This document shows positions 7,501-54,283 of a stretch of DNA of 56,908 nucleotides, in pieces (the first letter of the stretch is position 1; each line of letters starts with the position of its first letter). The notes under the pieces were generated by a model. That model saw nothing but the letters and a program-made list of their open reading frames with translations, ran no database searches and was not told where the DNA came from. Position numbers and translations under genes: made by a program. Source of the stretch: a virus; the IMG/VR virus record IMGVR_UViG_3300027881_000016, positions 1 through 56,908 of that record; one strand, 5' to 3'.

Positions 7501-10500
7501 CTTCGCCAGACGCTTCTTAGCATCCGCCAGCTGCTTATCGGTCATCTTCTTGAACGTAAACTTCGGCTTAGTGGTCGGGAATTTCTTGAGCGGCCGCTTG
7601 CCTTGAGACTTCCGGAAGGCGTTGTACATGCGAAGCTTGGCGTTGCTGGTCAGCTGAGTCCACACAGTGCGGTACAACTGATGTCCAAGCTCATGGGCCA
7701 GCGCTGTGGTCGTGAGAGATGGATCTCCCAGAATCTTATCCGACAGATAGATGTACGAGACATCATTGAGTCGGATGTTCCGCGCGTCGACGTTCTTGTC
7801 GTCGAGCGTCTCTTGGAAAATAGGATCGTTCACCAAGCCGGTCTCGATCAGGTTAGCAAGACCGGTGTCGTCAATAACCACAACAGGGTTGCCCATGCCG
7901 AGTGTTTTTTGTACGAAGCCGACGATGCTCTTGACGGCCTTCGCAGTCGACCCATCAGGATCAATCCGATCGCTGATCATTACCGACAAAATTCCCTTAC
8001 GGCCCATGATCTTACGCGTCAGTTTCAATCCCTCAGAATGCTTGGCCTCGCGCTCGTCGCGGTGTATCTTCGCGGCGTCTTTCTTTTCTTTGTCGGTCTT
8101 GTACTTCCGACTCTGAGACTCCAATCGCTGCTCTTCCTCAGTCTCAACACCAGGTTCGCTCTTCTTCGGGTCAATCCTGTCCGGGTCAGTCTCTTCGACC
8201 ACTTTTACGTTTTGCGTTCTGCGTTGGTCACCACTAGGGAAGCTGGCTTCTTCTCCTGCGAAGTCTCGCTGGCCGCCCTCGAAGCCCGGTGTCTGCTCGA
8301 GCCGTGTGGTCGTGTCTTCGGCAGGAAGTACTGTCGGCTGCGACACTGGTCCAACCCCACCGGACCTGTCAGGCACTTGAGTGGTAACAACTTCCGTGTC
8401 CCCTCTGCCTGGACCGAACGTATCCGGGTCCCTGTTGCCCTGCTCATTAGCTAGTGCGCGCTGGCGTCGATCGTCTCTCAACTTGTTGAACAGGATCAGC
8501 GCCTCGTTCGGCTTAGTCCGCTGCAGGTAATAGAACGCTTGCTTGTCGTCTATACCAACGATGAACTTCCCGTCCTTCGTCTTCCGTATACCGATGATGT
8601 TCCAAATGGCTTTGTTGTCATTGCCAAGAAGTGCCTGCACTTCCTTGACGAGCATCGCACGCGCACGTTTGGCTTGTGCGTAACTGCCGTACTCGGGCTC
8701 TGGTGCTACAAGGTCAAGTCGGATCTGCGGGTCTCGATGCTCCTTGAGCTTATCGAACTTCTCGATCATGGCCTTGGATTCTTCGTTGGTCATCTTGCCG
8801 CGCAGGACCATCTCCGCGGCCATAGTGAGCAACCCTTCTCGAGTCGTCTTCGCCCCGGCGTCCTTGCCGGCGTGCGCCAGCGTGATCATGTCGATCTTAC
8901 CGTCAGCTGTCTTGCGAGCCTTGTTGGCTACGGTGTTCTTCGTGCGCCGGGCGGAAGCTCTCGCTCGTTTCAGCGCCCTGTTAAACTGGACGTCATTGCC
9001 GAGGACCTTCATGTCGCCCTCAATGACGAACGTACCGTCAGCCTGCTCATTGATGATGAACGGGTCTTCGGCGGTCTCGAAGAACAGGTCGCCCTGCTCG
9101 TTAGTCTCTGGTTGCGCTGCCGGGAACTCCGGACGAACAGTCTGCTCCAGTGCTTGCTCAGCCTGCTCCCGGGTGTCGTAACCGACCACGGTCTCGGTAC
9201 CGTCGGGCTGCAGCTCCGGTTCTTTCTGGAACTTGCCGAGTGTAAACGAAGGCGCCGGCTCAAACGTGTTGTCAACGTCTAGCGTCTCAGGATCTTGTTG
9301 TCGTGCAGACCCTGCATCGTCTTGGTCGGTACCTGTCTCTGCAGTGAGCTCATCTAGGATACCGCTGAGATCCATGTTGTCGACTTCAGCTTCCGTATTG
9401 CTGTCGCGTTGCTTCGCTCGGTCCTTGATCGCGTCAACGACAGGCTGCACCTGTTTCCTAATGGTCTCGACGCCTTGGTCGATGAACGCTTGGCGTGCCA
9501 CAGGGTCAGAGATGTTCTGCGCTGCTGCATACAGGCTGGCTGAGCGCTCGTTGACGAAGCTCTTCAGCCTGGCGAACTCTTGCTTGTGCGTATCGACGAA
9601 CTTGTTGTGCGCGTCGACGATGATCTTTGACAACTTAGTAGCTGCCGAATTCATACCGCCACCCATGTCAGAGTCAAGCACGTCGAGCACCTTCTGTGCT
9701 CCGTCACGCAGCTTGTTAACAACTGGGTCGACGACTGGGGCGACCGTATTAATCACTCGGTCACGAAGTTCTTCGTACACAGTATTGTCAGCTGGCTCGA
9801 ATCCCTCTGGGTATTTGTCTTCCTTGGTCTCCGCAGTCCCGTCTTCCTTAGAGCTAAGTGACCAAGTAGGCATGGTCAGCTTCTTGGCTTTCGCCCTAGC
9901 AAGCCGTGCCCTGATGGAAGGTAGCCCCTTCTGCCCTAATACCTGAGCAGCGCCACCTGTAATTGTACCAACCATCGCGCCGACTGCGTATGCCTCGATC
10001 ATCCGTCCCTTGTTCTCAGCAGAGAACATGTCGAATGTCGGGTCGTGATAGGCCATCGCAGCCAGCTGGATCGCTTCCTGTGCGAGCTCAGTGCCACCTT
10101 CTATCAGGTGCTGTGAGCCGGAGGCGATGAGGAAGTCTTTGATGAAAGCCTTGGCGACGATCTTGTCGACCCCGGGGAACAGCTTGTCAATCAAGCGCAA
10201 GGCAGGGATCGCTTCGAGCGCACCACCTACCACACCGACCATGAGCGAGGTCATGCCTGAGTCAAACCCGGCTTCTGTCAGCTCAAGGTCGGCCGCGCCA
10301 GTCATGGGACCGGCAGCTGCAGCACTACCGCCGAGCGCTCCACCTTTAAGGAATGCCGCTCGAGTTATTTCCTTCGCTGTCTTGCCCTTGATAACTGCGT
10401 TCGCGAGCATCTTCTCGCCTGACGACGTAGCCAAGAGCCGCTTAGCGGACATCGCAGACGCCTCTGCAGAGAAGCCCTTCGCGGTCAAGCGCTTCGTGAT

Positions 10501-34588: not shown

Positions 34589-34680
34589 AACACCATCCAG
34601 AAGAACAGCGCCAGGCACACGATCCAGATGAAGGCTTCGAAGAAGGGACTTGGTGACTTAGTGCTAAGTGACCCTGTCAC
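34585..34680 (-). CDS. 31-residue membrane peptide
   Basis: A GTG-started frame overlaps the Acb2-like stop and ends on the Tat gene start. It has a single hydrophobic helix (FIWIVCLALFFWMVL). Tight overlap on both sides supports translation even though it is short. Confidence 0.5.
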   Translation of the reverse strand: MTGSLSTKSPSPFFEAFIWIVCLALFFWMVL

Positions 34681-34868
34681 TCAGTGATACCCTTAACGGC
34701 CCACATCACGGCCTCCTCGAGTTTGGCCGCGGCCATATCTGACTCGCGTTTGCCGATGTCGAGCATGCAGTACAACTCGAAGGCCTTGTTCTTGATATTG
34801 TCGATGCGATCTTTCTCGCTGGGATTGAGTTCCCGGTACTCGGGACGGAAGGGGTTGGATCGTGGCAT
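34677..34868 (-). CDS. Acb2/Tad1-type small protein, candidate anti-CBASS/Thoeris sponge, 63 aa
   Basis: The pattern FRPEYRELNPSEKDRIDNIKNKAFELY followed by KLEEAVMWAVKGIT matches what I know of the short helical hairpin family annotated Acb2/Tad1 domain. Acb2 proteins bind cyclic oligonucleotide signals and so block CBASS defence; related Tad1 proteins bind Thoeris signals. The gene is first in the leftward operon, beside the control region. Recognition is by eye, and the ligand, if any, cannot be read from sequence. Confidence 0.62.
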   Translation of the reverse strand: MPRSNPFRPEYRELNPSEKDRIDNIKNKAFELYCMLDIGKRESDMAAAKLEEAVMWAVKGITE

Positions 34869-34943
34869 GATAAATGCTCCTTGGCTATTGCGTGGAAATA
34901 GGCGCTTTAACGCACCATAAGTGGGTTAAAGTACGATAAATCA

Positions 34944-34957
34944 ATCACTATAGTGAT
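34944..34957. promoter_or_regulatory. 14-bp perfect palindrome
   Basis: ATCACTATAGTGAT is fully symmetric and could bind a dimeric regulator. It contains half-sites CACT/AGTG also found in the other palindromes of this region. Confidence 0.6.
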
Positions 34958-34972
34958 CTGGGCGTAAATTTT

Positions 34973-35022
34973 TGTTAGAAAAATATAGCGTTTTTCTAAC
35001 AGATTTCTGTCATTACAGAAAT
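34973..35022. promoter_or_regulatory. Two adjacent AT-rich inverted repeats
   Basis: TGTTAGAAAAA-TATAGCG-TTTTTCTAACA (11-bp arms) is followed one base later by ATTTCTGT-CATT-ACAGAAAT (8-bp arms). Either could be an operator, a bidirectional terminator or an unwinding element. Confidence 0.6.
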
Positions 35023-35142
35023 TACTGAAAGGACAGACTTATTCCCGGACGACCAGCGTCGTAGAATGGGGCTATCATACCTGACGGGGATATCATATGC
35101 AAATGTGGAAAAAAGTGACGACCAGCAGGTAGGGGTGGTACT

Positions 35143-35299
35143 AAGTGACTCCGTCACTTGGCACTTCGTGACTGAAAACTCAGTCACTAAGCGCCGAGAA
35201 TCTGAACCATCAGACTGCCAAGGAACCTTCCCAGCCTGACAGAAATTCTAAGCGCTTTAATGACTTAGGGTCAAGAGCGAAGTGACTCAGTTCCTGAGT
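35143..35299. promoter_or_regulatory. Operator-like array built on AGTGAC half-sites
   Basis: AAGTGAC-TCC-GTCACTT at 35143, GTGACTGA-AAAC-TCAGTCAC at 35168 and ACTCAG-TTC-CTGAGT at 35285 are perfect palindromes with shared half-site letters. Spacing and repetition suggest binding of one regulator at several sites. Confidence 0.5.
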
Positions 35300-35346
35300 T
35301 ACTTGGTGACACAGTAGTACTACGTACTACCGAACCAAAAACAAAA

Positions 35347-35383
35347 CGACTGCTTACGCAGTCGGTGCCTAGAGCTCAGTGTC
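35347..35383 (+). promoter_or_regulatory. Early leader hairpin 1 with TCAGTGTC tag
   Basis: CGACTGC-TTAC-GCAGTCG, a 7-bp short form of the repeated hairpin, is followed by GGTGCC and TCAGTGTC before the first early gene. It lacks the outer stem of the other copies. Confidence 0.75.
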
Positions 35384-35405
35384 TTTAACGTAAGTGGAGT
35401 ACATC

Positions 35406-35714
35406 ATGAGCATCTACACCGTGTTAGCTTCGATGGGCATCGAGATCGACGGCGAGATCGTGGACATCCAAGAGATGGGCGAGTACGGCACGTTCGACGA
35501 CGCCATGCGCGCATGCGTCGAGTTCTGGAACACGTCGGACGCCATCCATCCTGACATCGGCAGCTGGGTCGAGTCCTCCAAGGGCGACACCAAGTACTAC
35601 CCTGAAGACTACTGTCTTCAGGACGGTGTGCTCGTCATTGGCCGCACCAATGACTCGCAAGAAGCCGAAGACCATGCCGAGTTCCTCGCCATGTCCTACG
35701 GCGCACCGTTCTAG
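35406..35714 (+). CDS. Early unknown protein 1, acidic, 102 aa
   Basis: ATG at 35406 has GGAG 6 bases before it. The product (MSIYTVLASMGIEIDGEIVDIQ, with an acidic body and many aromatic residues) has no membrane segment. First gene of the early rightward series and preceded by the leader hairpin, so probably expressed soon after entry. Small acidic early proteins often inhibit host enzymes, but no function can be read. Confidence 0.82.
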   Translation: MSIYTVLASMGIEIDGEIVDIQEMGEYGTFDDAMRACVEFWNTSDAIHPDIGSWVESSKGDTKYYPEDYCLQDGVLVIGRTNDSQEAEDHAEFLAMSYGAPF

Positions 35715-35723
35715 TCACCATCT

Positions 35724-35753
35724 GGGCATCAACCGCTTACGCGGTTGGTGCTC
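35724..35753 (+). promoter_or_regulatory. Early leader hairpin 2
   Basis: GGGCATCAACCGC-TTAC-GCGGTTGGTGCTC, a 13-bp stem with G-U pairs, then CGGTGTCATTCAC and GGAG ahead of the gene that starts at ATT. Confidence 0.88.
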
Positions 35754-35789
35754 AGTTCTCGGTGTCATTCACCTCAACTGGAGTAAGCC

Positions 35790-36080
35790 ATTACACCTGA
35801 CCGCAACGAGGCGTCGAAACGCTTATGCTCGCCCCTCACACTCGAAGATGGTCTCATCATCGAGCGTGCCGCTTATCGCCGCAATGGCGAGTCCCTCGCC
35901 ATTCTCGCTTCCATGATCTACGCCGGCAACGCCGACGCATACATCATGAGCGAGCGCGTCGAGATTGCTGCCTGCGACCGTTGGTCAGCAGAGCAAGCTA
36001 TGCGCGAAGAGCTCGAAGATCAAGAACGTTGGGATTGCCAGTACGGCTGGGATCCCGCTGACGACTGCTACTCCGAGTAG
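35790..36080 (+). CDS. Early unknown protein 2, apparent ATT start, 96 aa
   Basis: The frame from 35790 to the TAG at 36080 is clearly coding in style and sits after a leader hairpin and a GGAG at the same spacing (7 bases) as in its neighbours. The base triplet at the expected start is ATT, and the next in-frame ATG is about 40 codons downstream. Either AUU is used for initiation or the base differs from a true ATG. The product has a helical acidic part (IERAAYRRNGESLAILAS, REELEDQERWDCQYGWDP). Confidence 0.68.
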   Translation: MTPDRNEASKRLCSPLTLEDGLIIERAAYRRNGESLAILASMIYAGNADAYIMSERVEIAACDRWSAEQAMREELEDQERWDCQYGWDPADDCYSE

Positions 36081-36088
36081 CATGCTCT

Positions 36089-36118
36089 GGGCATCAACCG
36101 CTTACGCGGTTGGTGCTC
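36089..36118 (+). promoter_or_regulatory. Early leader hairpin 3
   Basis: Same 13-bp stem sequence as hairpin 2 (GGGCATCAACCGC, loop TTAC), followed by TTATTGTCTTTTAAC and a GGAG. Confidence 0.88.
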
Positions 36119-36153
36119 AGTCTTTATTGTCTTTTAACTGAAGGAGTAGCACC

Positions 36154-36441
36154 GTGGCACATTTCTTGAAGATCAGTAGCATCGAACTTTTCCAGTCCCC
36201 GATGCACGAAGAGAACGGCGTGTCTATTGGCGACAATGACACATACCTCTTGTCCAGGACCGCTGCCGCAGTCCTGAACAAAGCTCGCCCAGCTGGCCGC
36301 AGCTTCACTGCTAACAGCTGGACCAACAAGAAGTGGTTTGACAAGTTCGTCAAACACACTTCTTTCCGTCCTGAGTACATTCTCTTTGCCCGTGGCAAAG
36401 TGAATCAGGACCGTTGGTATGCTCGCGCCATCTCGTTCTAA
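36154..36441 (+). CDS. Early unknown protein 3, 95 aa
   Basis: The GTG start at 36154 has AAGGAG at good spacing. The protein (MAHFLKISSIELFQSP) contains an Asn/Trp/Lys patch (SFTANSWTNKKWFDKF) and ends YARAISF; it is basic and soluble. Preceded and followed by leader hairpins, so it has its own mRNA leader. No family recognised. Confidence 0.8.
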   Translation: MAHFLKISSIELFQSPMHEENGVSIGDNDTYLLSRTAAAVLNKARPAGRSFTANSWTNKKWFDKFVKHTSFRPEYILFARGKVNQDRWYARAISF

Positions 36442-36450
36442 CCACTCGTT

Positions 36451-36480
36451 GGGTATCGACCGCTTACGCGGTCGGTGCCC
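36451..36480 (+). promoter_or_regulatory. Early leader hairpin 4
   Basis: GGGTATCGACCGC-TTAC-GCGGTCGGTGCCC: compared with hairpin 2 the paired bases changed together (A-U to G-C and others), which supports RNA structure. TCATTGTCTTTCAC and GGAG follow. Confidence 0.9.
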
Positions 36481-36516
36481 AATGTTCATTGTCTTTCACA
36501 CTGAATGGAGATAGTC

Positions 36517-36807
36517 ATGGATATGATCACCCAAGGATTCATAGCAGCGGCCACAGTCCTGTGGCTCCTTAGCTACATTGGGTTCCGCAAAGTGTTCCAC
36601 TTTGCGTTTCTGGTCGACGTTGTTTGCACCGGCACGTTCGTATTCGCCTTTGCAGGCTCATACGCCGGCATGATGACTGGCGTCATCGCCGGACTCATGG
36701 TCTCGATGTTCATCAAGACCGGTCGTGCCGTTGCCGGCTCGCTCAAGCCTTCGCTTGTGCGCGCCAAAGGCAACGTCCTCCCAACCCTCGTTTGGGTCAA
36801 GAGCTAA
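36517..36807 (+). CDS. Early membrane protein, about three helices, 96 aa
   Basis: The start at 36517 is used because GGAG lies 6 bases before it; an ATG 12 bases upstream overlaps the Shine-Dalgarno. There are hydrophobic segments at about residues 7-25, 30-50 and 50-72, then a basic tail (KTGRAVAGSLKPSLVRAKGN). Likely in the inner membrane. Superinfection exclusion or membrane remodelling are possible roles by analogy only. Confidence 0.78.
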   Translation: MDMITQGFIAAATVLWLLSYIGFRKVFHFAFLVDVVCTGTFVFAFAGSYAGMMTGVIAGLMVSMFIKTGRAVAGSLKPSLVRAKGNVLPTLVWVKS

Positions 36808-36817
36808 CCCCCCGATT

Positions 36818-36847
36818 GGGCATCAATCGCTTACGCGATTGGTGCTC
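36818..36847 (+). promoter_or_regulatory. Early leader hairpin 5
   Basis: GGGCATCAATCGC-TTAC-GCGATTGGTGCTC: one pair differs from hairpin 2 on both sides (C-G to U-A), a compensatory change. TTATTGTCTTTTC and AAGGAG follow. Confidence 0.9.
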
Positions 36848-36880
36848 AGTCTTTATTGTCTTTTCTACAAGGAGTACAGC

Positions 36881-37162
36881 ATGAACAGCAACGCAATGTT
36901 CCTCATTTACCTCGCAGAGCTAATTCGGATATGGCTGCGTTGGCTCATCATTGGCGCGATCATCATGGTAGTGATGTTCGGCTTTGGGCCTGCCGGCGCC
37001 TTCAGCTCTTGGTTCGCATACCACGGCTTCGTCGCTTGCGCCGGCGCCGCTACCTACACCGGCATGGTTGCCGACGTAGGCTACATGATAGGCAAGGCTG
37101 CCTATCGTGGTATCCGCAAGGGCGTAGGCTTCTTCGGTGAGCTCGTCGAGACGGCCTCGTGA
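36881..37162 (+). CDS. Early membrane protein, about two helices, 93 aa
   Basis: ATG at 36881 with AAGGAG. Hydrophobic segments at about residues 18-38 (WLIIGAIIMVVMFGFGP) and 46-65, then a helical C-terminal part. The adjacent 96-residue gene is also membrane-type, so the pair could act together. Family unknown. Confidence 0.78.
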   Translation: MNSNAMFLIYLAELIRIWLRWLIIGAIIMVVMFGFGPAGAFSSWFAYHGFVACAGAATYTGMVADVGYMIGKAAYRGIRKGVGFFGELVETAS

Positions 37163-37386
37163 GCGGCACCGAGAAGCTGATCAATGAGTCGCGTATGCGA
37201 CGCATTGATCTACTCACTGAGATCGCCGGCCTTTCAGACCGTGCGCTCTCAGCTCGTTTCACCGTAGTCAACGGTGCCTACCTTGAGGTAGCCAACGATT
37301 ACACTGACTACGGTGAGCCCGCCCCCCGCGAGCCGGAAGAGCTGCAACTCTTGCTGAACGCAATGGTTGCTCGGCTCGCGAGTTAA
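37159..37386 (+). CDS. Early unknown soluble protein, 75 aa
   Basis: The GTG start overlaps the membrane protein stop (GTGA), so translation is coupled. The protein starts MSGTEKLINESRMRRIDLLTEIAGLSD and is helical and acidic at the end. No leader hairpin precedes it, unlike its upstream partner. Confidence 0.75.
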   Translation: MSGTEKLINESRMRRIDLLTEIAGLSDRALSARFTVVNGAYLEVANDYTDYGEPAPREPEELQLLLNAMVARLAS

Positions 37387-37457
37387 CACGCCGCGTGTCC
37401 CTGCCGGTGGACAATAGCAGGGAAAGTACCCTTTCCACTCACCTTTGGAGGTGATTC

Positions 37458-37661
37458 ATGGCTCATCAAGAGCTGCACGCTTACGTAGAGGGCACAAACC
37501 TCTACACCGACATGCGCATGCGCATAGAACTCGCACAGACTAGTCTGCGCGAGGTCATTGCCGTGGCCGGCAATTTCGACGCGGATGACCGGTTGATTCA
37601 CATCAACGGTAACCCCGTCGGCATGCGCGAGCTACACAAGTGGCACTCCATACTTGGGTAG
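37458..37661 (+). CDS. Early unknown protein with very strong RBS, 67 aa
   Basis: The ATG follows GGAGGTGATTC, nearly the full anti-Shine-Dalgarno complement. The leader carries different small hairpins (TCCCTGC/GCAGGGA at 37398-37423) rather than the repeated one. The protein (MAHQELHAYVEGTNLYTDM) is mixed polar with no membrane segment. Unrecognised. Confidence 0.78.
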   Translation: MAHQELHAYVEGTNLYTDMRMRIELAQTSLREVIAVAGNFDADDRLIHINGNPVGMRELHKWHSILG

Positions 37662-37671
37662 CACCCCCCAT

Positions 37672-37702
37672 AGGCTATCCCCGGCTCACGCCGGGGGTGC
37701 CT
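37672..37702 (+). promoter_or_regulatory. Early leader hairpin 6
   Basis: AGGCTATCCCCGGC-TCAC-GCCGGGGGTGCCT, a 13-bp stem with one bulged T; then TTCAGTGCCTTTTAACC and AAGGAG. The loop is TCAC rather than TTAC. Confidence 0.85.
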
Positions 37703-37739
37703 TTACTTCAGTGCCTTTTAACCTGTCAAGGAGACAGAT

Positions 37740-37928
37740 ATGAGCAACACCCCTAAGTACGCTGTATACACCATCCGCGATCGCGGCGAAGACCAGAAGG
37801 CTTTCTGGCTGCGCATCGGCAGCGGCTTCGTGAACAAAGATGGCAGCATCAATGTTCTCTTGGACGCTTTGCCTACTGATGGCAAGCTCCACTTGCGTGT
37901 GCCGGCTCCGAAGGACGCTGAGTCCTAG
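37740..37928 (+). CDS. Early unknown protein, 62 aa
   Basis: ATG at 37740 with AAGGAGA. The protein (MSNTPKYAVYTIRDRGEDQKAFWLRIG, VNKDGSINVLLDALP) has the look of a small beta-barrel: basic, strand-rich, with a KDGSINV turn. Such short proteins occur often in phage early regions; function unknown. Confidence 0.8.
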   Translation: MSNTPKYAVYTIRDRGEDQKAFWLRIGSGFVNKDGSINVLLDALPTDGKLHLRVPAPKDAES

Positions 37929-37934
37929 CACACA

Positions 37935-37970
37935 TATGGGTATCGGCCGCTTACGCGGTCGGTGCCCATA
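37935..37970 (+). promoter_or_regulatory. Early leader hairpin 7
   Basis: TATGGGTATCGGCCGC-TTAC-GCGGTCGGTGCCCATA, extended to 16 bp by extra outer pairs; then CTCAGTGTCACTCAC and GGAG. Confidence 0.9.
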
Positions 37971-38000
37971 TCTCAGTGTCACTCACAACTGGAGCTCGCT

Positions 38001-38183
38001 ATGAGCAGTACCATTCGTTGTTACCAATGCGAACAGAAGGTCAACTACCTGTTCGCAGACAGCCGCTGCAAAGACTGCACGCGCCTCACCCCCGCTGAAG
38101 TGCGCGGTGATTTCGTCTACTGCAGTTATTGCAGTGACTTCGGCTGTCACAAGTGTGACTCCACTCAACCTAACCTCTCGTAA
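38001..38183 (+). CDS. Small zinc-ribbon protein, 60 aa
   Basis: ATG at 38001 with GGAG. Four CxxC pairs are visible: CYQC, CKDC, CSYC and CHKC, enough for two zinc sites. Small zinc-ribbon phage proteins often bind nucleic acid or RNA polymerase, but no specific family is recognised. The next two genes follow closely, sharing its leader. Confidence 0.78.
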   Translation: MSSTIRCYQCEQKVNYLFADSRCKDCTRLTPAEVRGDFVYCSYCSDFGCHKCDSTQPNLS

Positions 38184-38193
38184 GGAGAACGAC

Positions 38194-38361
38194 ATGGAAA
38201 TTATGTTCATCGTGTACAACATCAAACTGCACATCCGTACGGCTGCTTTTGCCTCTTACGATGATGCTGCTGCATACATACGCACCCGCTCTTATCCCAA
38301 GGGCTATCTCGTCGAAACTGTTGAGGAAGACGAAGACCTCTTCCACACCATTAACCGCTAA
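38194..38361 (+). CDS. Early unknown protein, 55 aa
   Basis: ATG at 38194 with TAAGGAG 7 bases upstream. The protein (MEIMFIVYNIKLHIR, then SYDDAAAYIRTRSYPKGYLVETVEED) is a small alpha-beta type with acidic end. It is co-transcribed with the zinc-ribbon and L7/L12-like genes. Confidence 0.78.
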   Translation: MEIMFIVYNIKLHIRTAAFASYDDAAAYIRTRSYPKGYLVETVEEDEDLFHTINR

Positions 38362-38371
38362 GGAGAACGCT

Positions 38372-38689
38372 ATGATGAATCTCAACAACATCTCAATCAA
38401 GATCCACGGGGTCGGCCCAGGCCGACCAACCGTGTCCTTGATTCGCATCTTCCGTGACTTTCACGGATGCTCGCTCACGCAGGCCAAGGAAGTCGTCGAA
38501 GACGTGTTCCCCGTCACCGACGACGATCTCGCCTATCCCTCGATAATGCGCGTCAACCTGCTTGGTGATGACCAAGCACTCGGTCGACTCGCACACCTCG
38601 TTCATAGCTCTTCAATGTTCTCTTTCGAGCTCATTGATCGCTTGAACTTTCACGGCGCTGCCCTGAAAGCAAAAGGTTGGCTCAGCTGA
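38372..38689 (+). CDS. Protein with L7/L12 C-terminal-like domain, 105 aa
   Basis: The stretch VSLIRIFRDFHGCSLTQAKEVVEDVFP resembles the C-terminal domain of ribosomal protein L7/L12 (IKxVRxxTGLGLKEAKxLVExxP). In ribosomes that domain recruits translation factors. Phage copies are known but their role is unclear; interference with or support of host translation is a reasonable idea. AAGGAG precedes the start. Confidence 0.68.
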   Translation: MMNLNNISIKIHGVGPGRPTVSLIRIFRDFHGCSLTQAKEVVEDVFPVTDDDLAYPSIMRVNLLGDDQALGRLAHLVHSSSMFSFELIDRLNFHGAALKAKGWLS

Positions 38690-38695
38690 ACCTTG

Positions 38696-38728
38696 CAGGC
38701 ATTCCACGGCTTACGCCGTGGGTGCCTG
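38696..38728 (+). promoter_or_regulatory. Early leader hairpin 8
   Basis: CAGGCATTCCACGGC-TTAC-GCCGTGGGTGCCTG, a 14-bp stem with one bulged T, then ACTTCAGTGTCACTCATCAC and AAGGAG. Confidence 0.88.
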
Positions 38729-38761
38729 TACTTCAGTGTCACTCATCACAAGGAGACAGTA

Positions 38762-39076
38762 GTGATTACAGTAGGCAACAAGCGGCATGGTGCAACCGGT
38801 GAATACATCGGTCGGCCTTCGCCACTCGGCAATCCATTCCCGGCAGGGCCGGTGCATGGTACCCGCGATGAAGTCATCGCTAAGTATCGCGCATGGCTGA
38901 CTGACATCTGGAATTCAGGTGGCCTGAATCCTCAGATGACAGAACTGTTCAGACTCGCGGACCTCGCCCTGGCGGGCGACGTCACGCTCGTATGCTGGTG
39001 TGCCCCTAAAGCATGCCACGGTGATGTAGTTAAGGAGTTCATTGAGCTCATCAACAAAGGGAGACCCGCAGCATGA
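38762..39076 (+). CDS. DUF4326-family protein, 104 aa
   Basis: GTG start at 38762 with AAGGAGA. The signature YIGRPSPLGNPF, EVIAKYRAWL and LVCWCAPKACHGDVV identifies DUF4326, a small family common in phages and bacteria. The conserved Cys/His residues (CWC, CH) could form a metal or redox site. Biochemical role unknown. Next to SLOG and macro-like genes, so handling of nucleotide-derived compounds is possible. Confidence 0.82.
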   Translation: MITVGNKRHGATGEYIGRPSPLGNPFPAGPVHGTRDEVIAKYRAWLTDIWNSGGLNPQMTELFRLADLALAGDVTLVCWCAPKACHGDVVKEFIELINKGRPAA

Positions 39077-39264
39077 AGATCGTTCGTACGAGCCCGTTCT
39101 CGGGCGAAACAAACGTCATGGAGATCGATGTGACACCTAGCCAGCTTACAGCTTGGCAGAATGGCACACTGATCCAAAACGCCATGCCGCACCTGTCGGC
39201 AGATGAACGTGAGTTCATCATGACCGGCATCACTCCAACCGAATGGAATGAAACATTCGGTTGA
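39073..39264 (+). CDS. Early unknown protein, 63 aa
   Basis: Starts by ATGA overlap with the DUF4326 stop. MKIVRTSPFSGETNVMEIDVTPSQLTAWQNGTLIQNAMPHLS ... FIMTGITPTEWNETFG reads as a short strand then helices; similar phage proteins exist but without function. Coupling implies a shared role with DUF4326. Confidence 0.75.
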   Translation: MKIVRTSPFSGETNVMEIDVTPSQLTAWQNGTLIQNAMPHLSADEREFIMTGITPTEWNETFG

Positions 39265-39272
39265 TCGCAATG

Positions 39273-39304
39273 CAGGTATCCACGGCTCACGCCGTGGGTG
39301 CCTG
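39273..39304 (+). promoter_or_regulatory. Early leader hairpin 9
   Basis: CAGGTATCCACGGC-TCAC-GCCGTGGGTGCCTG, a 14-bp stem without bulge, then TTCAGTGTCATTAAC and AAAGGAG. Confidence 0.9.
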
Positions 39305-39335
39305 TACTTCAGTGTCATTAACAAAGGAGATTGAC

Positions 39336-39887
39336 ATGACTGATTACTATGCTGGCATTGGTTCCCGTCAGACGCCCATGAACACGCTCATCATGATGCG
39401 CGAGGCAGCAACAAGCCTCGAGATCATGGGCTTCAAACTGCGCAGCGGTGGTGCTGCTGGCGCAGATTCAGCCTTCGAGCAGGGCGTCACGAACCCAGAT
39501 AATATGGACATTTATCTGCCGTGGTCTAGCTTCAACAAGAACCCTTCATCTCTGAGTGTAATTTCAGGTGAAGCGTTCGTTATGGCTTCGCAGTTCCACC
39601 CTGCATGGGAGCGTTGCAGTGTTGCCGCGCGAAAGTTCCACGCTCGGAACTGCTACCAAGTGCTTGGCTTCACGCTTGACGTGCCGGCCATGTTCGTTAT
39701 CTGCTGGACCCCCGGTGGCGCTATAACTGGCGGCACTGGCCAAGCGTTGCGTATCGCGCAACACCATAACATCCCCATCATCAACCTCGGTGATGGAGAC
39801 TGGAAGCTTGACGATATCATTCAAGCAGTCGAAGGCATTCACATGTCCGCAGACCAAGCTTCCATCACCAAGCACGTTCCGTTCTAA
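39336..39887 (+). CDS. SLOG/DprA-like Rossmann protein, 183 aa
   Basis: YYAGIGSRQTP at the N-terminus, LRSGGAAGADSAFEQG, DIYLPW, a later GGTGQALRIAQHHNIPIINLGD and other segments match the SLOG superfamily (DprA, LOG, YspA-type). These domains bind nucleotides such as NAD-derived signals or DNA. ATG with AAAGGAG at 39336 follows a leader hairpin. It pairs with the macro-like gene just downstream, which suggests a common nucleotide-related function, possibly against host defence. Confidence 0.75.
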   Translation: MTDYYAGIGSRQTPMNTLIMMREAATSLEIMGFKLRSGGAAGADSAFEQGVTNPDNMDIYLPWSSFNKNPSSLSVISGEAFVMASQFHPAWERCSVAARKFHARNCYQVLGFTLDVPAMFVICWTPGGAITGGTGQALRIAQHHNIPIINLGDGDWKLDDIIQAVEGIHMSADQASITKHVPF

Positions 39888-39899
39888 GGAGAGCGCTTT

Positions 39900-40346
39900 A
39901 TGATCCATAAGACCGGCGATATGCTCGCCAACCTCGTTAGTGGTGACATCTATCTCGTCACCACTAACAGCTACATCCGTAAGGATGGGGCTCTCGTCAT
40001 GGGTCGCGGTGCTGCCAAACAGCTCGCGACCATGTTCCCCCGCATACCGTATCTCCTCGGCGATCGCATCGATCACCTCGGAGAGTACAACGTCGGTGTG
40101 CTGACGCAAACCAACGAGCCGTTCCTGTCGTTGGGAGCGTTCCAAGTGAAGTTCCATTTCGGCGATGCCGCCGACCTGGAACTCATCACTCGGAGTCGCG
40201 ATGAGCTCCATAAACTGGCCTGTGAAGATGGACGTGTATTCCACGTCAACTTCCCCGGCATTGGCAATGGTCGTCTGAAGTACGACGACGTGTTGCCAAT
40301 CATGGAAGACCTCCCAGACAACGTGTGTGTCTGGACATTTGCGTAA
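39900..40346 (+). CDS. Macro-domain-like protein, 148 aa
   Basis: TTNSYIRKDGALVMGRGAAKQLA resembles the ligand loop of macro domains (N-x-x-L...G-x-G-x-A), and FHVNFPGIGNGRLKYDDVLPIM fits the later strand and helix. Macro domains bind or hydrolyse ADP-ribose compounds. AAGGAG lies 9 bases from the ATG. Located 12 bases after the SLOG-like gene, in the same transcript. ADP-ribose binding is inferred from resemblance only. Confidence 0.65.
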   Translation: MIHKTGDMLANLVSGDIYLVTTNSYIRKDGALVMGRGAAKQLATMFPRIPYLLGDRIDHLGEYNVGVLTQTNEPFLSLGAFQVKFHFGDAADLELITRSRDELHKLACEDGRVFHVNFPGIGNGRLKYDDVLPIMEDLPDNVCVWTFA

Positions 40347-40356
40347 GGAGAACGAC

Positions 40357-40635
40357 ATGATCGCTGTACCAATCAAGGAAGACTACACTATGGCCCGCGC
40401 CCCATACTGGGGCTGGCTCATAGCCATTATCGTAATGAACGCAATGCTGCCATATGAAGCAGGCATCCTCGCTATATTTCTGCTGGTCGGTCTTGTGTTT
40501 ATCACATACGTTCGAGTGAAGAACATAGGGTGGCATGGAGCTTGGACGCTCTGCTTATTTCTCCCGTTCTTCAGCTTCTTCATCGGCTTCTTCCCTAGTA
40601 AGAAGCCGCTGTCCCTCGTAGGGGAACGCTTATGA
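40357..40635 (+). CDS. Early membrane protein, three helices, 92 aa
   Basis: ATG at 40357 with TAAGGAG. Hydrophobic segments at about residues 18-35, 36-54 and 60-78, with a basic tail (SKKPLSLVGERL). A later in-frame ATG lacks a Shine-Dalgarno. Together with the other early membrane genes it suggests that early products change the cell envelope. Family unknown. Confidence 0.77.
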   Translation: MIAVPIKEDYTMARAPYWGWLIAIIVMNAMLPYEAGILAIFLLVGLVFITYVRVKNIGWHGAWTLCLFLPFFSFFIGFFPSKKPLSLVGERL

Positions 40636-40808
40636 GCATGCAGCTCGTTCACACTTCCTACCACGTCATTCGTGACGTGGATGGGAAGGTAATGCTCACC
40701 ACTCACGATTTCCATCTTGCAAAGATGACGCAAATCGACCTTTGGATTCACAGCATGGCGTGTCATATCGACACGTCCACTTGGCACAGAGAGGTACCAT
40801 CATCATGA
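40632..40808 (+). CDS. Small unknown protein, 58 aa
   Basis: ATG overlaps the membrane protein stop (ATGA) with AGGGGA upstream; the stop overlaps the next start. The protein reads MSMQLVHTSYHVIRDVDGKVML and is His-rich (eight His), which could bind metal. Unrecognised. Confidence 0.65.
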   Translation: MSMQLVHTSYHVIRDVDGKVMLTTHDFHLAKMTQIDLWIHSMACHIDTSTWHREVPSS

Positions 40809-41119
40809 AAATCTTTATTACGCTCGCTACGCTCGCGCTCTTTACCGTTGTAGTGCCACCGGCTCACGCCGGTGACGCAACAATTCGGCTGCAAGAAATT
40901 ACAGCCGAAAGTTGCGCAGTTGCTGTTGTCCTGGACGGACAACATCAACACTACAACTGGTTCGCTGCGCGGTCCGGGTTTAACGAGAAGCTGTTTGATC
41001 TGCTGCTCGAATTCACAATCGAAGATCTCACTGACGCGAGACTTCGTCTTTCAACCTCCGATTCGAATCATCGTGAGGCTGAAGAGTGCATAACCCTGAA
41101 GACCGAACTTGCAGGGTAA
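40805..41119 (+). CDS. Exported periplasmic protein, 104 aa
   Basis: Residues 1-22 are a Sec signal peptide (MKIFITLATLALFTVVV PPAHA) with likely cleavage after AHA. The mature chain has two Cys and acidic helices (FNEKLFDLLLEFTIEDLTDA). The DNA coding for the cleavage site contains a hairpin with the same TCAC loop as the early leaders. A periplasmic early protein could affect later infection or phage entry. Confidence 0.72.
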   Translation: MKIFITLATLALFTVVVPPAHAGDATIRLQEITAESCAVAVVLDGQHQHYNWFAARSGFNEKLFDLLLEFTIEDLTDARLRLSTSDSNHREAEECITLKTELAG

Positions 41120-41129
41120 TCCCTGCAAG
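41108..41129 (+). repeat. 9-bp hairpin across a stop codon
   Basis: CTTGCAGGG-TAAT-CCCTGCAAG spans the stop codon of the exported protein gene. There is no T run, so it is more likely an RNA stability or processing element than a terminator. Confidence 0.6.
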
Positions 41130-41137
41130 AAAGAAGG

Positions 41138-41169
41138 TAGGTATCCACGGCTCACGCCGTGGGTGCCTA
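41138..41169 (+). promoter_or_regulatory. Early leader hairpin 10
   Basis: TAGGTATCCACGGC-TCAC-GCCGTGGGTGCCTA, 14-bp stem whose outermost pair differs from hairpin 9 on both sides. The downstream tag is altered (TTTTGTGAACC). Confidence 0.88.
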
Positions 41170-41203
41170 TTGTTTTGTGAACCAATAACCAGAGGAGAAT
41201 TAT

Positions 41204-42233: not shown

Positions 42234-42270
42234 GGGGAGTGGGCACTTCGGTGCCTGCTTCCCTTTTTTT
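42234..42270 (+). terminator. Strong intrinsic terminator of the early block
   Basis: GGGGAGTGGGCAC-TTCG-GTGCCTGCTTCCC forms a 13-bp stem with a TTCG loop, followed by seven T. It ends the 35.4-42.2 kb unit. Confidence 0.9.
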
Positions 42271-51484: not shown

Positions 51485-51864
51485 CGCCCCAAGCTCGACG
51501 CTTCGGGTTTGTTTTCGCAGTCTACGTAGCAGACGAAGTCTGGAGAGACATCTGTGTTTGGTCCTCGGGACCTTCACGGTACAACACCAACACAGACAAA
51601 CGGATCCATGAGTTATTGACGCGCTGCTACGAGGGCATGAGTAAGAAGCTCGCTGTACGGGACGACTTCGTAGCTTATGAGTTCAAAGTGTGGGCATGGC
51701 GGCGCGACCACCCACAAGCAAAAAAGAAAGGCCGCTTTCGTCTTGGAGCACGCTTGTTTCTAACTCCAGAGACCGGAGCACCTTGGTTGTTTATCTATGA
51801 TCCAAAAGTAAACTCACTCTCGGATCTTAAAAAGGGGAATGCCCCAGAGGAAATAGAAGAATGA
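51430..51864 (+). CDS. Unknown protein, 144 aa
   Basis: ATG at 51430 has AGGAGA at good spacing. The first residues (MASSEQEHPYYYPAGVPITPQARRFGFVFAVYV) and WAWRRDHPQAKKKGRFRLGARLFLTPETGAPW suggest an alpha-beta nucleic acid-binding type domain with a basic loop. No family recognised. Confidence 0.75.
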   Translation: MASSEQEHPYYYPAGVPITPQARRFGFVFAVYVADEVWRDICVWSSGPSRYNTNTDKRIHELLTRCYEGMSKKLAVRDDFVAYEFKVWAWRRDHPQAKKKGRFRLGARLFLTPETGAPWLFIYDPKVNSLSDLKKGNAPEEIEE

Positions 51865-52538
51865 AATACACGATGATAGCTCTACTGCTCTTTGCACTCC
51901 CGGCTTTTGCTGGGCCGAAAGACAAATGTGACGACCCCAAGCCGAACAAGCATGTCTCGTACGAATGCCTGGATGGAATACTTGACGGTGTAGTCGGTCA
52001 ACCGGGACCAGCAGGACCAATGGGACCAGCCGGCGCTGATGGTGCAACTGGCGCGATTGGTGCAACTGGCGCGACTGGTGCTGCAGGCGTTGATGGCGTT
52101 GACGGTGCAACTGGCGCGACTGGTGCTGCAGGCGCCGATGGCATCAACGGAACCAACGGTGTCGATGGCATCAACGGAACCAACGGTGTTGACGGTGTTG
52201 ACGGTGTTGATGGTGTTGATGGTGTTGATGGCCGCGATGGTATTAATGGAATCAATGGACGCGATGGACGCGATGGCGTTGTACCGAATGATTGGTACGA
52301 GCAACTCAACAGTTACGGTGAGTACCTCGCTGCCACAGAGGCCATTCAAATTCATCTACCTGATGACGCCACATCACGCGTCACCTTTGGCGTAAGCCAT
52401 GTGGACGGCGAGAACGGTTTCGGTCTCGGCTACGCATACAGATGCCATGACTGCGAACGCGACCTTGCCCTCACAATTGGTGTTGGTGCAAGTGGTGACG
52501 AAGTTGCCGGTAAAGCAAGTATCGGCTGGGAGTTCTAA
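51861..52538 (+). CDS. Secreted collagen-like protein with YadA-like membrane end, 225 aa
   Basis: Residues 1-17 are a Sec signal peptide (MKYTMIALLLFALPAFA). Residues 46-141 are 32 unbroken Gly-X-Y triplets, expected to form a collagen triple helix. The final ~70 residues (VTFGVSHVDGENGFGLGYAYR, ALTIGVGASGDEVAGKASIGWEF) look like the four-strand anchor of trimeric autotransporters, ending in Phe. A trimeric protein on the outer membrane is therefore likely. Cys 23 and 36 lie before the stalk. ATGA overlap with the upstream gene. Confidence 0.78.
   Translation: MKYTMIALLLFALPAFAGPKDKCDDPKPNKHVSYECLDGILDGVVGQPGPAGPMGPAGADGATGAIGATGATGAAGVDGVDGATGATGAAGADGINGTNGVDGINGTNGVDGVDGVDGVDGVDGRDGINGINGRDGRDGVVPNDWYEQLNSYGEYLAATEAIQIHLPDDATSRVTFGVSHVDGENGFGLGYAYRCHDCERDLALTIGVGASGDEVAGKASIGWEF
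52015..52285 (+). repeat. Nine-base tandem repeats in the collagen stalk
   Basis: Repeated blocks such as GGTGCAACTGGCGCG and GGTGTTGAC code for Gly-X-Y triplets. Copy number is probably variable between phages. Confidence 0.85.
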
Positions 52539-54111: not shown

Positions 54112-54204
54112 GGGTGTGAGGCGAATATTGGCTTAAGTCGCTGCGGACTGTAAATCCGTAATCTGCTAGACAGGGTGATGGTTCGATTCCATCCGCACCC
54201 ACCA
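54112..54204 (+). tRNA. tRNA-Tyr (GTA), with encoded CCA
   Basis: Acceptor GGGTGTG pairs with CGCACCC, followed by A and CCA. The anticodon loop CTGTAAA gives GTA, flanked by a GCGGA/TCCGT stem. T stem GATGG/CCATC with loop TTCGATT. There is a long variable arm as expected for Tyr. Phage tRNAs usually support codons that the host reads poorly. Confidence 0.85.
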
Positions 54205-54207
54205 AAT

Positions 54208-54283
54208 TGGCGAATAGCTCAGCTGGTTAGAGCACCGGTCTGATACGCCGGCGATTGAGGTTCGAGTCCTTGTTCGCCAACCA
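54208..54283 (+). tRNA. tRNA-Ile (GAT), with encoded CCA
   Basis: Acceptor TGGCGAA pairs with TTCGCCA, then A and CCA. D stem GCTC/GAGC, anticodon stem CCGGT/GCCGG with loop CTGATAC (anticodon GAT), T stem TGAGG/CCTTG with loop TTCGAGT. Starts 4 bases after tRNA-Tyr. Confidence 0.9.

Follow-up and report, generated by a model that had tools for sequence, protein, structure and literature searches.

Cis-acting hairpins in phage messenger RNA (mRNA) are a known kind of element. The leader of phage T7 gene 10 contains a hairpin, a U/A-rich enhancer and a Shine-Dalgarno (SD) sequence, and RNase III sites of the same phage are hairpins located between early genes. In phage T4, the target of gp43 repression comprises a UAAC-loop hairpin located ~40 bases ahead of the AUG and the sequence over the ribosome-binding site, and the 3' AC of the loop is important (PMC3014915). 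The boxB hairpin of phage 21 has a UMAC-type loop which is bound by the N peptide (PMC12550061), and UNAC loops in general adopt a GNRA-like fold (PMC5311481). In cluster K mycobacteriophages, the arms of the ESAS element, described along with SAS, do not support RNA pairing, and its authors prefer a DNA-binding site (PMC3203893). Here, we describe a series of ten hairpins in a viral contig from an uncultured phage (IMG/VR record IMGVR_UViG_3300027881_000016). The window, i.e., the whole stretch of DNA that was analysed, covers its 56,908 nucleotides (nt). The hairpins lie at 35347-41171, all on the + strand and in a single rightward operon, with one hairpin ahead of each of ten translational units and no others elsewhere in the contig. 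Based on the genome layout, this operon is inferred to hold early genes.

A sequence-only reading of the window had listed ten copies with a TTAC or TCAC loop. All of them are present, seven with TTAC and three with TCAC. Each hairpin is followed by GGTGCC or a similar sequence, a tag near CAGTGTCATTAAC, an SD and the start codon. The shared tag ahead of the ribosome site can be recognised clearly in all but one copy (w10), in which it has diverged. Some of the dimensions given at first needed adjustment. Nine stems have 13-17 pairs rather than 12-16 bp, two of them with a one-base bulge, and the first copy (w1) has only 7. The stem bases are found ~30-36 nt ahead of the start codons, where 30-45 had been given, and 38-43 nt lie between the end of the upper stem and the start. 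A position just after a stop codon is seen for nine copies, the stem beginning 4-9 nt after it in eight and 16 nt in one; w1 lies in the 5' leader, with no gene before it.

Chance repeats were ruled out by counts in dinucleotide-shuffled sequence. Between 35.3 and 41.2 kb, eight TNAC-loop hairpins with at least 10 uninterrupted pairs were seen, against a mean of 0.007 (maximum 1) in 300 shuffles, and at 7 pairs, the count was 11 against 0.08. The folding energy of the nine intergenic copies is 3.5-6.3 standard deviations lower than that of shuffled sequences, and that of the first copy 1.1 lower.

Related contigs were collected by terminase searches, and three further uncultured phages were found to carry the series: phage b (3300032272_000017; L017/L008) with eight copies, phage c (3300028610_000726; L006) with three before the contig end, and phage d (3300027881_000098; L030/L031, near-identical to 3300027856_000244) with seven and one weaker site. 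The 28 copies of the four phages (w for the window, b, c and d) were aligned without gaps. There is strong support for the claim that both stem sides change together and that the structure of the RNA, not its sequence, is under selection. The nine distinct copies of the window alone give a covariation score of 0.454, compared to 0.187 when shuffled (0/500) and 0.04-0.10 with slid partners. The proposed check, covariation beyond chance among aligned related genomes, gave the same answer: the 28 copies score 0.659 versus 0.247 shuffled (0/500) and 0.06-0.14 with slid partners, with both-sided changes at 14 of 15 stem pairs and 87.7% of the cells paired. The two controls preserve either the column make-up or the relatedness, not both, and their results agree. 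Across the 28 copies, G.U cells outnumber A.C cells 62 to 8, which shows that pairing is maintained in the + strand RNA, not in DNA or on the other strand. A palindrome acting at the DNA level is ruled out by this asymmetry.

The core stem is exactly 7 pairs long, with C-G closers at both ends in 26/28 copies and five free pairs between them. Just two unpaired cells occur in the upper stem across all copies. A UNAC loop is present in 27/28 (UUAC 14, UCAC 8, UAAC 3, UGAC 2), the exception being one UUGC. Since N takes all four bases and the stem sequence has 21 forms, the fold of the loop is kept and not the sequence. At pair 8, a U.G wobble predominates in phages w, b and c, and G.U in phage d. 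With a constant loop fold, a variable stem and a fixed core length, the core is best read as a docking site. Pairing of the loop with the GUG of the tag in a pseudoknot was checked by eye and is not supported, as the tag varies and 13-17 bp would have to be spanned. A short GTG...CAC hairpin inside the tag was seen in some copies only.

The first copies of the four phages (w1, b1, c1 and d1) are located in the operon leader with no gene ahead. These copies have the core together with the tag region and the GGYGCC-like 3' strand, but are without most of the lower-stem partner strand and the U-rich tail. Their energies range from -10 to -14 kcal/mol, compared to -18 to -31 kcal/mol for all others, and most of them have 7-9 pairs, compared to 11-19 in the others (some counted with internal loops). 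As the core and tag are kept where the lower stem and tail are lost, the former would serve the downstream gene. The lower stem and tail are restricted to intergenic copies and would concern the junction with the upstream gene.

These lengths bear on RNase III processing, one of the three functions offered by the sequence-only reading and, in our view, a very unlikely one and the least likely of the three. The hairpins do lie between early genes, as the T7 sites do, and the intergenic stems are long; however, the duplex of about two turns expected of RNase III sites is not found, and the first copies are too short. The conserved loop, not needed by bacterial RNase III, would remain unexplained. 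Either of the two other functions, a regulator site or a 5' leader or stabiliser, may apply, and the protein-bound UNAC-type loops of other phages favour the regulator.

The tails bear on termination, which was assessed with our own coding of the d'Aubenton-Carafa score (d). No T run had been reported after the stems. This is correct for the U-poor first copies (mean of 2.0 U in the 9-base tail) and less so for the intergenic copies (4.3; p = 0.004, for a comparison picked after data inspection). Twelve of 24 intergenic copies have d > 0, mostly slightly. Two copies of phage d are clearly above zero (d2 45.2, d5 31.5). The terminator that closes the window operon scores 45.6, and all four first copies score -49 to -69. 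It is conceivable, although unlikely, that the copies are leaky intrinsic terminators or polarity gates, which would grade expression or stop RNA polymerase unless the upstream gene is translated. The U-richer tails, the positive scores (two of them clear) and the short distance to the stops fit such a role: in an Escherichia coli terminator, moving the stop codon from 28 to 5 nt upstream lets the ribosome repress termination from ~90% to <10% (PMC4824070). However, half of the intergenic copies score below zero. Termination as the sole or common function was rejected because the first copies, without terminator features, keep the core ahead of the first gene. The statement that these are not ordinary terminators thus stands in the main, with an intergenic median d near zero and stems 4-9 nt after stops, and some weak terminator character may remain. 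Weak translation-dependent termination as a side function is possible.

The tag and loop raise a further alternative, namely a repeated set of nut/boxB-type antitermination signals in the operon, in which the tag would take the place of boxA. The loop of phage 21 boxB is UNAC-like, hairpin and boxA follow each other in this order in rrn leaders, and the w1 tag has TCTTTAAC in common with the rrn boxA. This stretch is seen only in some window copies, however, and is absent from several others and from phages b, c and d. One site per operon would be enough instead of ten, and no N-like gene was recognised, which makes this explanation improbable.

The spacing of the genes is informative as well. 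Where gene calls are sound, junctions bearing the module are 68-96 nt long, and most other junctions of the same operons measure -11 to 12 nt. A few long gaps contain other hairpins (37387-37457 in the window, 8664-8722 in phage b). In the hairpin-less relatives L033 and L041, an overlap of 4 nt or a distance of at most 18 nt is the usual arrangement of the orthologous genes, with some exceptions; at one L033 junction, a tag-like GAGTGTTAACTGAAAGGAG follows a poor hairpin. The contrast between long module junctions and short or overlapping ones indicates that the module marks units translated on their own. This agrees with the main rival of the docking-site model, a portable leader that has no dedicated regulator. 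In such a leader, the hairpin would stabilise the mRNA 5' end (or the upstream 3' end) and insulate, while the G-poor tag and SD would form a strong ribosome site. The order and spacing of hairpin, U/A/C-rich stretch and SD resemble the T7 gene 10 leader. We nevertheless find it doubtful. Stability alone leaves the UNAC loop, the exact 7 pairs, the C-G closers and the pair-8 wobble unexplained, as a GNRA or UUCG loop would do.

We tentatively favour a docking site, and propose from sequence comparison that each copy may be a two-part cis-acting mRNA leader, in which a docking hairpin for an RNA-binding factor controlling early translation is combined with an intergenic insulator stem. The constant core, present in every copy including the first, consists of the 7-bp C-G-closed stem, the UNAC tetraloop, GGYGCC or a relative, the G-poor tag and the SD. 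It would be the docking site of a putative RNA-binding factor, either phage- or host-encoded, which would contact the UNAC loop and probably also the tag beside the ribosome site. This factor would set the translation of each early unit, most likely by repression once it has accumulated, as at the T4 gp43 operator. The lower stem, 4-9 nt after the upstream stop, would uncouple neighbouring genes by blocking ribosome run-on and might add weak, translation-sensitive termination. One factor could then control ten separately translated units. A regulator is favoured since the UNAC-type loops of the T4 gp43 operator and phage 21 boxB are protein-bound, and control of translation is favoured since the position 38-43 nt before the start, with the tag beside the SD, resembles the T4 operator. 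In a stronger form of this proposal, which is somewhat doubtful, a single RNA-binding protein would read the portable 7-bp UNAC hairpin, copied ahead of almost all early translational units, and shut off or switch on the whole early programme as a phage-wide translational regulon. No phage description of such a design was found in the literature searched.

Several points weigh against the docking-site model. The tag differs among the four phages. The usual 30S footprint does not reach the hairpin, so repression would need the tag or the SD to be covered too. No copy precedes the phage's own DNA polymerase gene; this enzyme belongs to family A, and T4 gp43 to family B. Gene-content profiling did not yield a partner protein; it covered contigs b, c and d up to or into the replication genes, where these contigs stop, and would have missed a partner encoded further to the right. 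Among the window genes outside the hairpin operon, only one stood out by its presence in c and d and its absence from L033, L041 and G006, and it encodes a 63-aa Acb2 sponge (PF24729). It was ruled out as the hairpin partner, as phage b carries the hairpins without Acb2. The gene (window 34677-34868, - strand) adjoins the operon leader, and its product matches the Acb2/Tad1 hairpin domain of the anti-CBASS sponge family (E 5.8e-12); an Acb2-type protein is also present in phages c (L006) and d (L030) and in L013.

The hairpin series was not found in the sampled early regions of L033 and L041/L042, which form one group in the terminase tree, separate from the hairpin carriers. A single gain or a single loss would suffice for this pattern, though neither is proven. 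There is none in the whole records of the cultured relatives KPP25, Aeromonas phiA008, Rollin and Rhizobium RHph_TM3_14A. Pattern scans of IMG/VR beyond the four lineages gave single scattered sites and no series, and in bacterial genomes, 11 solitary sites were seen, which we attribute to chance in a collection of that size. A search of bacterial genomes with the large terminase (TerL) retrieved no relatives. The gene downstream of w4 (36517-36807), a small membrane-protein-like gene with a G-S/T-YAGMMTG motif, is found at 28 IMG/VR loci in otherwise distant phages, and in none outside the four lineages is it accompanied by the hairpin. In L015 (4008-6389), the terminase match extends over ~2.4 kb for ~530 residues, as if an intron, a homing gene or a similar insertion lay within it.

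Table 1. Positions of the hairpin modules and of neighbouring elements in the window.
Feature	Position	Strand	Description
Divergent intergenic operon leader	34920..35346	+	GTGAC/GTCAC inverted repeats; AAGGAACCTTC common to related phages
w1	35347..35405	+	7-bp UNAC hairpin (35347-35364), GGTGCC, tag CAGTGTCTTTAAC (35377-35389), SD; operon 5' leader; without lower stem
w2	35722..35789	+	15-bp hairpin (35722-35755), tag GGTGTCATTCAC, SD; next open reading frame apparently starts at ATT (35790)
w3	36087..36153	+	15-bp hairpin (36087-36120), tag, SD, GTG start 36154
w4	36447..36516	+	17-bp hairpin (36447-36484), tag, SD, ATG 36517; module also on orthologues in phages b and d
w5	36814..36880	+	17-bp hairpin (36814-36851), tag, SD, ATG 36881
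Different, non-UNAC hairpin (CCCTGC...GCAGGG)	37387..37457	+	Junction of same length (71 nt), tag-like stretch; possible relic or substitute
w6	37672..37739	+	13-pair hairpin (37672-37702), one bulge, TCAC loop, tag, SD, ATG 37740
w7	37934..38000	+	17-bp hairpin (37934-37971), tag, SD, ATG 38001
w8	38694..38761	+	16-pair hairpin (38694-38730), one bulge, tag, SD, GTG 38762 (DUF4326 gene)
w9	39271..39335	+	16-bp hairpin (39271-39306), tag TTCAGTGTCATTAAC (39308-39322), SD, ATG 39336
w10	41136..41203	+	16-bp hairpin (41136-41171), diverged tag GTGAACCAATAAC, SD, ATG 41204; same junction as copy b8 in phage b
Operon terminator	42234..42263	+	Closes the hairpin-carrying operon; strong intrinsic terminator (d = 45.6) with TTCG loop and T7 tail

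The leftward genes of the window encode head and packaging proteins (portal, large and small terminase, major head protein), and the rightward ones early and replication proteins (family A DNA polymerase, a primase-like DUF5906/VapE protein, a PD-(D/E)XK nuclease). The terminase is distantly related (35-46%) to those of Pseudomonas phages KPP25 and phiR18 and Aeromonas phage phiA008, and no near relative was present in the phage collection searched. The operon leaders of the window (35140-35300), of phage b (L017 8110-8290), of L013 and of L034 contain numerous short GTGAC/GTCAC inverted repeats and a conserved AAGGAACCTTC, which are possible DNA operators. Two module-preceded genes, at 35790-36080 in the window and 9513-9911 in L017, apparently start at ATT and ATC, with well-placed SDs; no similarity between their proteins was detectable. 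The product of 38372-38689 very weakly resembles the ribosomal protein L7/L12 in its C-terminal domain (E 0.13). Near the right end, 51861-52538 encodes a small protein that contains collagen-like triple-helix repeats (PF01391) and, at its N terminus, a hydrophobic stretch resembling a signal peptide, and tRNA-Tyr and tRNA-Ile genes are found side by side at 54112-54283.

In Rfam 15, no family matched the window at the gathering score except tRNA, and the best weak match was BSnc120 (23.5 bits for a cut-off of 114). A comparable hairpin series was not found in the open-licence literature either. The initial impression that no described element is like this one therefore holds for these searches, but close functional precedents exist in the T4 gp43 operator and phage 21 boxB. 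A covarying RNA family with many copies per genome and no Rfam entry provides a direct handle on early-gene control in an uncultured phage group. If one protein does read the loop, this would be a rare case of whole-operon, site-by-site translational control, and the hairpin and its protein would make a compact control part that is portable.

The T7 gene 10 leader and RNase III sites do not form a repeated family with a conserved loop, and RNase III sites are longer and loop-independent. Phage 21 boxB shares with our hairpins a UNAC-like, GNRA-like loop in a phage hairpin. It is a hexaloop acting in antitermination with boxA alongside, whereas no N protein and no consistent boxA were found here. 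The SAS/ESAS elements likewise contain an inverted repeat and recur immediately ahead of the start codon in many small phage genes (PMC3203893); in contrast to these, pairing is strongly supported here by covariation and the G.U asymmetry, and the SAS sequence GGGATAGGAGCCC was seen in none of the leaders. The T4/RB69 gene 43 operator (PMC3014915) is similar in its loop (UNAC in 27/28 copies here), in its distance to the start and in extending towards the ribosome site, where the tag lies here. That operator is single and autoregulates the DNA polymerase gp43, while 3-10 sites per operon precede unrelated small genes here, with N of the loop free. The kind of element, a phage cis-acting mRNA hairpin, is known, and a multi-copy regulon would be new if the factor were shown.

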